Assembly: GCA_902774295.1 (NCBI GenBank)
Contig: CACYHP010000002.1
Location: 62,001 to 126,000, forward strand
DNA from: an uncultured Bacteroidia bacterium
GTDB lineage: Bacteria > Bacteroidota > Bacteroidia > Bacteroidales > F082
DNA: 64,000 nt
Direction of reading: 5' to 3'
Position 1 is the stretch's first letter. Each line of letters opens with the position of its first letter. Shown one piece after another: positions 3,469-45,968 of this stretch. Under the pieces are notes generated by a model. The model did not search any database. It saw only the letters and a list, made by a program, of their open reading frames with translations, and was not told the origin of the DNA. A program made the translations under genes and the position numbers.

Positions 3469-3493
3469 TAGGGACGCACAGCGTGCGTCCCTA
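3469..3493 (+). repeat. Perfect 11-bp-stem palindrome TAGGGACGCAC-AGC-GTGCGTCCCTA
   Basis: Perfect inverted repeat with a 3-base loop between iorB and the M23 gene. No U-tract follows, so it is not a typical terminator. Its TAGGGAC arm is shared with the 46-bp palindrome inside the methyltransferase gene at 24856-24901. Confidence 0.85.
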
Positions 3494-5360: not shown

Positions 5361-6826
5361 TGTTTCACGATTCTCTCCGAAAACTCCTTGCCATCCGCCA
5401 TTCTGATTTTCAAGATATAGACTCCGGCGTTGAGGTTTTCAACGTTGATGGTTGTTTGCTGAGACGCGCCATGGCACGTCTCTACAAGGCGTCCGTCCAG
5501 CGAATAGATGTTTACCTCCTGGCAGGTTGAATTCTCAGCAAAGCTGATGTTGACAATGTCTTTGGCGGGGTTGGGATAGCAGAGGAATGGCTTTTCTGAA
5601 AATGACAATTCATCGATTGACAGATAGTTGTCGAAAACAACGGCATAGATATCCTTCGACTCATACCATGATAGTTCGTCAGAAAGCCAGCCAGCTATGG
5701 CAACTCCTCCGTTTGAGAGGGGGGTTAAACCATAGTTTCCGAACATCCCGAGATCCAATATGTGCATACATGGTTTTGACCAAACAGGATCAAGATTCAT
5801 GTCCAAACATGATACAAACAGTGTCTGCACTGACAGTTTTTCTTGTCTGTCTTTCTTTTCCTCATATACAAGAAAGATGTTATTATCAGTCACACAAAGA
5901 TTCCTGTTCTGATAGTCATACTGCGGATAACTGTCATATGTGTATTCCCCTATGTTATATGCCTTTTCAATTTCATAATCCGAATTGATTTTTAGCACCA
6001 GCAAAGCAATGACACCTTGAGAACCCTGCCATTTTCTTACTTCAGTCGTAATGATAAAACCGCCATCACCCGTACCGCAAGCATTTGTATATACAGACGT
6101 GCCAAGAGTCCATCCATCATAATTCTTGATTGTTTTTCTCTCCAGTTTGTTGAACCATTCATCATATATATCAATGGTTATATCATTGTTTCTGAACAAA
6201 ACATATCCGTATTTCAAAGGCTCCGATGAAATCTGAAAAACGGGGTTTTCCAGCACTATGCCCGATTCAGATCCTGCCGTTGATATGGAATCAGACTGAA
6301 ATTTCAGGGTGCCGTCGAGCCCTATCCTCATGAGAAAGAAATTGTTGTTGTCTATTTTTGCCCGGCATATCATGTCATTGTTGCTGTCAACGAAAAACTT
6401 TGTCGGTATAAGGCATCCTTCCGGAAGCATTGTCTCAACTTCATCTGTTATCTCAAGGTTGTCATTGATATACGTGGCTTTATAATAATTTATATCATCC
6501 AACGTGTAAAACGACGTCATGATTGTACTATTGGCATTCACCGGGTCGCGCAACATGGGGTTGAGGCTATAGATATTATGATCCTCTATGAATAGTGAAT
6601 CGAGCAAAGCGCCATCTGGGGTGATTTTGTAGAGATTATAGCCGATATCTTCCTGGTTTTCATCAAAAACACTTTCCCTCACAATTAAATTCCCATCGCT
6701 CATCTCAAGGATGTTATCACATTGGCTGAGTGGATAGTTGCCGTGATGAAGCCAGGTGTTGTAGTTCTGCGCTGATGATAATAATGTGATGATCATCAAT
6801 GCTAAGGTTACTGAAAATTTTTTCAT
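5357..6826 (-). CDS. Secreted protein with type IX secretion C-terminal sorting domain
   Basis: 489 aa from the MKKFSV start at 6826. An upstream ATG at 6868 would put 14 residues ahead of the signal peptide. The signal ends near SSAQ. The middle (about 25-400) looks like a beta-propeller-type repeat with many Asp/Asn/Trp/Tyr residues and no recognised enzyme motif. The C-terminal about 80 residues form a type A T9SS sorting domain: YPNPAKDIVNI, then LDGRLVET, then LNAGVYILKI and a terminal IVKQ. The protein is therefore predicted to cross the outer membrane and be anchored or released. A GAGACG palindrome lies in frame inside the sorting domain (5461-5482). The function is unknown. Confidence 0.85.
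   Translation of the reverse strand: MKKFSVTLALMIITLLSSAQNYNTWLHHGNYPLSQCDNILEMSDGNLIVRESVFDENQEDIGYNLYKITPDGALLDSLFIEDHNIYSLNPMLRDPVNANSTIMTSFYTLDDINYYKATYINDNLEITDEVETMLPEGCLIPTKFFVDSNNDMICRAKIDNNNFFLMRIGLDGTLKFQSDSISTAGSESGIVLENPVFQISSEPLKYGYVLFRNNDITIDIYDEWFNKLERKTIKNYDGWTLGTSVYTNACGTGDGGFIITTEVRKWQGSQGVIALLVLKINSDYEIEKAYNIGEYTYDSYPQYDYQNRNLCVTDNNIFLVYEEKKDRQEKLSVQTLFVSCLDMNLDPVWSKPCMHILDLGMFGNYGLTPLSNGGVAIAGWLSDELSWYESKDIYAVVFDNYLSIDELSFSEKPFLCYPNPAKDIVNISFAENSTCQEVNIYSLDGRLVETCHGASQQTTINVENLNAGVYILKIRMADGKEFSERIVKQ
5461..5482 (-). repeat. 22-bp palindrome GAGACG...CGTCTC inside a T9SS sorting domain
   Basis: GAGACGCGCCATGGCACGTCTC is self-complementary except for one symmetric base pair. 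It is translated as part of VETCHGASQ in the sorting domain. The same GAGACG/CGTCTC arms occur in intergenic palindromes at 11767-11795 and 45940-45968. Confidence 0.75.
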
Positions 6827-11766: not shown

Positions 11767-11795
11767 TTAGAGACGCCACACTGTGACGTCTCTAA
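11767..11795 (+). repeat. 29-bp GAGACG-type palindrome downstream of glsB
   Basis: TTAGAGACG-C-CACACTGTG-A-CGTCTCTAA, with one symmetric mismatch. It lies just beyond the glsB stop (11802) and has no U-tract. It matches the element at 45940-45968. Confidence 0.8.
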
Positions 11796-22652: not shown

Positions 22653-22660
22653 TATTTTTG
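22653..22660 (+). promoter_or_regulatory. -7 promoter element (TATTTTTG) of hicBA
   Basis: TATTTTTG followed by C, 18 bases upstream of the chosen hicB ATG at 22679. This supports that start over the ATG at 22658, which lies inside the element. Confidence 0.55.
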
Positions 22661-22678
22661 CAAAACAAAAAATTATTT

Positions 22679-22900
22679 ATGGAATACAGTATTATCATAG
22701 AAAAAAATCCAGAAACAGGGTGGTATTGCGGACAATGCAAACAACTTCCTGAAGCATTAAGCCAAGGGAAAACTCTCGATGAGCTTATGGCAAACATGAA
22801 GGAAGCAATAGAGCTTGCCATCGAATGCCGAGAAGAAGAATTGCGAGAGCAATACCGAAATCGAAAAGTGTTTCACCGAAAATTAACAATCCCAGCATGA
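22679..22900 (+). CDS. hicB: HicB-like antitoxin
   Basis: 73 aa from MEYSIIIEKN. Single-domain HicB fold: Y.IIIEKNPETGWYCGQCKQLPEALSQG then TLDELMANMKEAIELAIE. It lacks the C-terminal DNA-binding helix-turn-helix found in longer HicB proteins, so autoregulation would need another route. It overlaps hicA by ATGA (22897-22900). The antitoxin-first order suits a toxin-antitoxin operon. Confidence 0.88.
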   Translation: MEYSIIIEKNPETGWYCGQCKQLPEALSQGKTLDELMANMKEAIELAIECREEELREQYRNRKVFHRKLTIPA

Positions 22901-23094
22901 AAAAAGCCAAATTTATCAGATACCTTAACGAACATCAATGTTACGCCACTGGACGACAGAAAGGCAGCCATGCTCAGTTCAGAAATACCGAAACGATGAA
23001 ATCGACCATTGTTCCAATGCATAATGAGATTGATGACATGTTGTGCAGAAAGATTTGTAAGCAGTTGGGAATTCCTGTGGTTGGAAGTAATTGA
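22897..23094 (+). CDS. hicA: HicA-like mRNA interferase toxin
   Basis: 65 aa from MKKAKFIRYLNEHQCY. A longer in-frame start at 22825 would overlap hicB extensively and is rejected. HicA adopts a double-stranded-RNA-binding-like fold. The catalytic His is in RQKGSHAQFRN, followed by IVPMHNEIDDMLCRKICKQLGI. Degrades mRNA when released from HicB. It sits immediately before a duplicated gene end and a decayed insertion, typical accessory-DNA company. Confidence 0.88.
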   Translation: MKKAKFIRYLNEHQCYATGRQKGSHAQFRNTETMKSTIVPMHNEIDDMLCRKICKQLGIPVVGSN

Positions 23095-24433: not shown

Positions 24434-25687
24434 TTATATCTTTTTGCATAAAATCACCACCTTCTTCTCCCCTATCAAAGTCGTGCCGAAAACGTAGTTT
24501 TTATCGCTTTCCTTGAGATTGAGACTTTTTCGCAACTCGTTGGCACTCAACGGGAAATTACGTGTTGCCACAGACGCCTCGGTGATGTCACTTAACAATT
24601 CTTTTTTGACTTTTTTGTTGAACGGCGCGAAACCGACGACCTCGAAAATACGGCCCGGGAAATCGGAAATCAGGTTGTCGGAGGTGTAGAGATGGCTGTT
24701 TACATGCAATTTTTCGATGGCGAAACGCTGGGAAATCAGCTTGAATGCGCCGGATTTCATCAATGATGAATTCGGTTCATACAAATATTTTTTGATATTT
24801 GATGAAAATGTCGGAATTGCCGATTTTTCTCCTGATTCAACGAATTGAAAATTCGTTTCATCCCGTAGGGACAAGGCATGCCTTGTCCCTACGGGATGAA
24901 AATCAACACAAAAATATTTTATCTCCCCATAAAATCCCAGTTCAATCTTTACCAAAACCTCCTTGCATTCGTTTTTCACCGACACGATATGGATTTCCGA
25001 GATATTTTGCAATTCATTGGTAATCATGGAAATATCCAACATCGGGGATAATTTAATCAACATGGTGCCACCATGTTGAGACGCACGGCCGCGGGTCTCT
25101 ACGATTGAAACCACGTCGGGCGAACAATCGTGCAACGAGACCATTTTGCGGTTGTAGATATCCCTTCTGGCAGGGTCCAAATAAAGGACAACGCATGCGT
25201 TGTCCCAACGGGTTGTCTGGTTATCATATCCAGTCGGGATAAGGCATGCCTTATCCCTTAAAAAAGATTCCGCATCGGAATTAACAACCGTGATCTTTCG
25301 TCCTAAAACCGCAAAATTATGTTCCGCCAAGTCACACAGTTCCTTCTGATTTTCAACGTAATAGGATGTTTTGAATCTCTCCGATAGGAAATATGAATCG
25401 ACACCCAGACCGCCTGTCAGGTCGACAAAGACATCACCACCATTGATGATCGAGGCCTTGTATTTCGCGGTAAGTTCGGAAGAACACTGCTCTATCGAAA
25501 GATGTTTTGGGAACAGCAAATCAGGATTCGACGCCCACGACGGCACCTTTTTCGAAAGAAGCTGCCGAGCCTCTATCTGGTTAAGTACAAATGTTTTATC
25601 TACATCATCAGGAAACTTATGCAACGCCAGCTGGCGCACGTCATCCTTCAGATGCGACTCAATGAAATCCCGGGTAGCTGTATTCAT
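24434..25687 (-). CDS. Class I SAM methyltransferase with THUMP-like domain, carrying in-frame palindromic inserts
   Basis: 417 aa. The N-terminal about 85 residues are helical. The SAM-binding core begins at FVDLTGGLGVDSYFL (about 98), with YVENQKELCDLAEHNF and later LYLDPARRD. The C-terminal part resembles the THUMP-like domain of a Bacteroidota family of predicted RNA methyltransferases; the substrate is unknown. At least four near-perfect palindromes (24856-24901, 25058-25099, 25186-25205, 25236-25257) are read through in frame, adding residues such as VGTRHALSLRDE and RDKACLIP. The frame stays open, so the gene is probably functional. It starts on the last base of the cstA stop region (TGATG). 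Confidence 0.85.
   Translation of the reverse strand: MNTATRDFIESHLKDDVRQLALHKFPDDVDKTFVLNQIEARQLLSKKVPSWASNPDLLFPKHLSIEQCSSELTAKYKASIINGGDVFVDLTGGLGVDSYFLSERFKTSYYVENQKELCDLAEHNFAVLGRKITVVNSDAESFLRDKACLIPTGYDNQTTRWDNACVVLYLDPARRDIYNRKMVSLHDCSPDVVSIVETRGRASQHGGTMLIKLSPMLDISMITNELQNISEIHIVSVKNECKEVLVKIELGFYGEIKYFCVDFHPVGTRHALSLRDETNFQFVESGEKSAIPTFSSNIKKYLYEPNSSLMKSGAFKLISQRFAIEKLHVNSHLYTSDNLISDFPGRIFEVVGFAPFNKKVKKELLSDITEASVATRNFPLSANELRKSLNLKESDKNYVFGTTLIGEKKVVILCKKI
24856..24901 (+). repeat. 46-bp perfect palindrome inside the methyltransferase gene
   Basis: TTTCATCCCGTAGGGACAAG with centre GGCATGCC and its exact complement. On the coding strand it reads FHPVGTRHALSLRDE. Its TAGGGAC arm matches the intergenic palindrome at 3469-3493. 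Confidence 0.95.
25058..25099 (+). repeat. Two abutting palindromes inside the methyltransferase gene
   Basis: CAACATGGTG-C-CACCATGTTG (25058-25078, perfect) overlaps by one base a weaker GAGAC...GTCTC palindrome (25078-25099). The coding strand reads ETRGRASQHGGTML through both. Confidence 0.85.
25186..25205 (+). repeat. 20-bp perfect palindrome inside the methyltransferase gene
   Basis: GGACAACGCATGCGTTGTCC. Same centre (GCATGC) and GGACAA arm as the 46-bp element. Confidence 0.95.
25236..25257 (+). repeat. 22-bp perfect palindrome inside the methyltransferase gene
   Basis: GGGATAAGGCATGCCTTATC ending CC; centre GGCATGCC as in the 46-bp element. It lies only 30 bases from the previous palindrome. 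Confidence 0.95.
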
Positions 25688-45939: not shown

Positions 45940-45968
45940 GTAGAGACGTCATAATATGGCGTCTCTAC
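45940..45968 (+). repeat. 29-bp GAGACG-type palindrome between CYTH and transporter genes
   Basis: GTAGAGACG-T-CATAATATG-G-CGTCTCTAC, one symmetric mismatch. Same family as 11767-11795 and 5461-5482. Confidence 0.85.

Follow-up and report, generated by a model that had tools for sequence, protein, structure and literature searches.

Palindromic sequences in a methyltransferase gene of a Bacteroidales bacterium are very probably copies of a double-foot repeat of the GTAG REP type, which has spread in this lineage and is kept in frame in tolerant parts of enzymes. The gene lies in a stretch of 64,000 nucleotides (the window), part of contig 2 in a genome of 2.38 Mb. Related genomes come from rumen and gut and bear the names Bacteroidales bacterium or Candidatus Limimorpha. 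Read this way, the case shows how small mobile hairpins supply essential enzymes of an uncultured gut lineage with new peptide segments and leave the enzymes intact. With the presence/absence series in close relatives (three methyltransferase sites, and at least two in MurB and AroA), one can test in which order insertion, core exchange and recombination took place.

The host gene matches PDB 3ll7, a putative methyltransferase (E 1.7e-61), and falls in the PG_1098/3ll7 family. Outside the inserts, comparison with close sister species gives a dN/dS of 0.08-0.12, which points to a working gene under purifying selection. The earlier note described four perfect palindromes and an imperfect one (GAGACGCACGGCCGCGGGTCTC, 25078-25099) in this gene, all read through without a stop, and all are present in an open frame (Table 1). 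Four palindromes with arms of at least 10 compare with a mean of 0.009 in dinucleotide shuffles and 0.02 in synonymous-codon shuffles; none of 1000 shuffles held more than one, let alone four. A shared GCATGC centre, also as described, is found in the 46-, 20- and 22-bp palindromes. The remaining perfect palindrome had been placed at 25058-25078; it exists, with a one-base centre, and extends a base further on each side to 23 bp. It lacks GTAG feet and a genome search found no copies of it elsewhere, which makes it an unlikely member of the repeat family. The imperfect palindrome GTAGAGACCCGCGGCCGTGCGTCTCAAC does belong to that family. Elsewhere in the window, a pair of small overlapping genes at 22658-23094 looks by eye HicB-like and HicA-like.

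Table 1. Positions of the host gene, its palindromes and related copies in the window.
Feature	Position	Strand	Remarks
Host gene, 417-aa class I SAM methyltransferase-like protein	24434-25687	minus	PG_1098 ferredoxin-like and THUMP-like domains (PF22013, PF18096)
Site C element, 46-bp perfect palindrome CCC-GTAGGGACAAGGCATGCCTTGTCCCTAC-GGG with extended arms	24856-24901	minus	encodes FHPVGTRHALSLRDE
Palindrome TCAACATGGTGGCACCATGTTGA, adjoins site B element	25057-25079	minus	not classed as double-foot repeat
Site B element, imperfect double-foot repeat GTAGAGACCCGCGGCCGTGCGTCTCAAC	25075-25102	minus	encodes VETRGRASQ
Site A element, right unit GGACAACGCATGCGTTGTCC	25186-25205	minus	encodes DNACVV
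Site A element, left unit GGGATAAGGCATGCCTTATCCC	25236-25257	minus	encodes DKACLIP
Intergenic copy TAGGGACGCACAGCGTGCGTCCCTA, with GTAGGGAC end	3469-3493		intergenic
Copy GAGACGCGCCATGGCACGTCTC in Por_Secre_tail sorting domain of secreted protein	5461-5482	minus	GRLVETCHGASQQ
Intergenic 29-bp relative, TTAGAGACGTCACAGTGTGGCGTCTCTAA on one strand	11767-11795		intergenic
Intergenic 29-bp relative GTAGAGACGTCATAATATGGCGTCTCTAC	45940-45968		intergenic

Are the palindromes insertions? The earlier note took them for a dispersed repeat inserted in frame, and looked to homologues and to the rest of the genome for a check. Both bear it out: the orthologues do not align without gaps, and many further copies are found in the genome. 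Alignment of two dozen methyltransferase orthologues puts the palindromes at three sites (A, B and C), whose added segments are missing or replaced in sister species. At site A, after NSDAESFL, left unit, spacer and right unit form a two-hairpin, REPIN-like composite with the peptide DKACLIPTGYDNQTTR, amounting to 16 extra codons relative to L011, L012 and L014. At site B, after SPDVV, the GTAGAGAC element stands where other species have a QNILLKNAK segment, and relatives carry several other cores there or are empty. The 46-bp palindrome occupies site C, after FCVD, and at both B and C the element-coded peptides sit where other orthologues have nothing. The distant orthologues L062 and L018 lack the methyltransferase inserts. 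Together with an AlphaFold model of low confidence (mean pLDDT 54), the gap positions suggest that sites A-C may be surface loops. Visual comparison of filled with empty sites showed no target duplication of the kind that marks a MITE and established no fixed target sequence, and no insertion event was observed in the genomes compared.

The sites differ among species in what they hold as well as in whether they are filled. At site C, L041 and L043 have flanks identical at 33/36 and 32/36 positions and ends identical at 16/16, with 5/12 in the core; L011 and L012 show the same pattern against L043, with unrelated cores, and flanks are 30-34/36 identical over all pairs compared. This pattern of conserved ends and flanks indicates that the whole core was exchanged in place, which copying from another element, excision and re-insertion or template switching may each have brought about. 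One insert also appears to have passed between species. The window and L010 share 112 identical bases over site A, reaching past the insert on both sides, while dS in the rest of the gene is 0.89; recombination between the two lineages is thus the likely reading, rather than two separate insertions. Element types are patchy on the methyltransferase gene tree, which was used only to show this, as many of its nodes are weakly supported. A second repeat family (GTCATTTCGACCGAAGCG...GAGAAATCTC) replaces the GTAG element at site C of L014, L047, L051 and L052, where it is read in frame, and occurs in frame in MurB of G000 (L141) as well, near PLPTVGRNDKRETVISSE.

The methyltransferase is rich in repeats, as the earlier note saw in calling it a hotspot; it is not a unique one, being one of several decorated core enzymes. 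Copies are read in frame in MurB, AroA, TilS and NqrA, at the C-terminus of a ClpB-type protein and in sorting domains of secreted proteins; this count is a lower bound, taken from pattern searches and the stretches around copies. Identities of the surrounding genes come from Pfam and PDB matches, with codon-usage scoring, which performs poorly even for the methyltransferase, as a guide only. MurB carries a two-hairpin composite and further inserts, which fall in gaps relative to PDB 7orz, and in both MurB and AroA the corresponding place in sister species is empty or holds another core. The MurB composite is the site A composite again in an unrelated gene, with about 82% identity and turned the other way relative to the gene. 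C1:828722 holds a third copy, and only these three were seen in the genome. Element-coded segments in the sorting domains of secreted proteins occur at window positions 5461-5482 and in L155, L156, L159, L160 and L164. The domain is of the Por_Secre_tail type in L155 and L156, the two tested, and four of these segments have VETCHGASQQ or VKTCHGASQQ in common.

Beyond genes, the palindrome that the earlier note reported between genes at 3469-3493 is present, and the family is dispersed well outside the window. The pattern TAGRGRN10-20YCYCTA has 51 matches in the genome against 16 for the reversed control, and two core classes have 16 and 20 against 0. The form GTAGAGACG-N8-12-CGTCTCTAC was found in all 35 congeners searched, with 1-69 copies each, and in 97/295 Bacteroidales genomes from 69/183 genera; the reversed control gave 0 in both sets. 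These double-foot units have constant ends (GTAGRGAC...GTCYCTAC) and widely varying self-complementary cores. Among 16 variants of the GCATGC-centred class, 4/9 stem pairs are changed in both partners, with a covariation score above that of all 500 shuffles; the set consists of paralogous copies found by pattern, and so supports kept hairpins and gives no dates. A 29-bp relative (GTAGAGACGTCAYANTRTGGCGTCTCTAC) has about 33 copies; one stem position is T-G (or C-A), and the copies often have A-rich sequence on one side and T-rich sequence on the other. All of the roughly 33 are intergenic, with none in a gene, and the two classes may therefore differ in origin.

How such copies would come to be where they are can be sketched from related systems. 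Each unit folds into a hairpin as a single strand and would have been spread by an IS200-like single-strand transposase (RAYT), since lost or never kept by this genome. A unit landing in a gene could persist if read in one of the two frames of three that avoid the TAG of the foot, and if the protein tolerates the peptide. Cores would later be exchanged, either copied over from another element or excised and re-inserted. No intact IS200-like transposase or RAYT was found in the genome, which has only a truncated Y1 remnant of 108 aa without the catalytic Tyr motif. The sisters G005, G015, G017 and G032 gave no PF01797 match, and around the RAYT genes of the YIxNNP type, which occur in congeners further removed, no double-foot copies lie within about 2 kb. 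A YIENQ-type motif marks most of the congeners' IS200-like genes. Hairpins of CCCGTAGGG ring 9/30 IS200-like loci of congeners (36 in 98 kb, against 1 in 338 kb of background), forming arrays around the genes of L064, L065, L073, L082, L083 and L092, and the CCCGTAGGG motif is found at both ends of the site C element. This link is given little weight: it is only nine bases long, and those genes look like subclass 1.2, described as REP-less. A RAYT-like gene at L247 1581-2576 has many repeat-coded segments (SQVSVPA) in its own frame, recalling the description of subclass 2.4.

A more ambitious reading, which we hold tentatively and think rather doubtful, is that the sites in core enzymes act as docking sites. 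Palindromes would be swapped there in place and in frame with ends and flanks kept, recombination would spread the result between species, and enzyme loops would be rewritten as an ongoing process across Bacteroidales.

Could the palindromes instead have arisen where they stand? Template switching at quasi-palindromes during replication could create them and keep them perfect, with similar cores as convergence and shared ends. The covariation among copies fits this, as do two-sided changes at orthologous sites, both in the outer stem (CATCCC/GGGATG against CAACCT/AGGTTG) and at site A (GAC/GTC against GAT/ATC). It leaves unexplained why a single 28-bp unit recurs with its characteristic C-A mismatch at many loci in many species, as well as the composite common to the methyltransferase and MurB and the replacement of whole cores between kept ends. 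Template switching is thus unlikely as the origin of the palindromes, and may act on copies already inserted.

It is also quite improbable that an RNA or DNA role in the gene, such as attenuation, mRNA stability or protein binding, is what keeps the hairpins there, with the peptide as a by-product. The pairing is kept, and the site C strand folds strongly as DNA (-24.9 kcal/mol, z -9.5), as such a role would have it; yet the sites in this gene are empty in sister species, no Rfam family comes near its gathering score, and the units also stand between genes and in unrelated genes. That the segments go untranslated deserves a hearing as well, since strong hairpins in coding sequence can trigger ribosome hopping in a few known systems. 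Bypassing of this kind would not need the reading frame to be open through the hairpin, whereas it is open through every listed in-gene copy, solely in the two frames without the foot TAG, and we give this account hardly any credence.

Searches by element DNA and peptide strings turned up no prior description of this repeat in the papers covered. The closest described kind is the double-foot REP of TnpA_REP subclass 2.4 (RAYT group 4), which has 5' GTAG and 3' CTAC feet around a hairpin, is reported from Bacteroidetes and Cyanobacteria and makes in-frame insertions (PMC6006769). Feet, hairpin and in-frame gene insertion are alike here. The feet, 5' GT[AG]G and 3' C[TC]AC, are found at site C (GTAGGGAC...GTCCCTAC) and by the family pattern, with the caveat that site A units have no clear feet (lost) and site B ends in CAAC. 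The repeat is likewise dispersed and multicopy. Unlike in that class, no RAYT of the kind is present in the genome or its nearest sisters, there are many core types per genome, and inserts in essential enzymes have cores that differ among sisters at one site. A cognate RAYT gene flanked by matching repeats was not found, so the likeness is one of repeat anatomy and not of full membership.

Intragenic GTAG REPs (GTAG families 1-24) are dispersed palindromes, also found as dimers, that make in-frame inserts of 20-30 aa in housekeeping genes, and different REPs occupy about the same recB site in two Xanthomonas species (PMC3733652). GTAG is an unpaired tag at one end in those elements, whereas both feet pair here. 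The earlier note likened the element to the Rickettsia palindromic elements, of which RPE-4 and RPE-6 are placed among the CGTC and not the GTAG repeats (PMC3733652). What holds of this likeness is in-frame palindromic insertion in working genes, in which the element works like an RPE. The lineage is another, and with the comparison made by the description in PMC3733652, the element is not identified as a Rickettsia palindromic element; the double-foot GTAG REP is nearer. Site A and MurB resemble REPINs in having paired hairpin units, separated by about 30 bases; they differ in that only three composite copies were seen in the genome, with no replicating population shown. The units are near-symmetric, which makes their orientation hard to call. 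Intragenic GTAG REPs and double-foot REPs were thus known already; what is new is that they have spread through essential enzymes and that their cores are exchanged at fixed sites.
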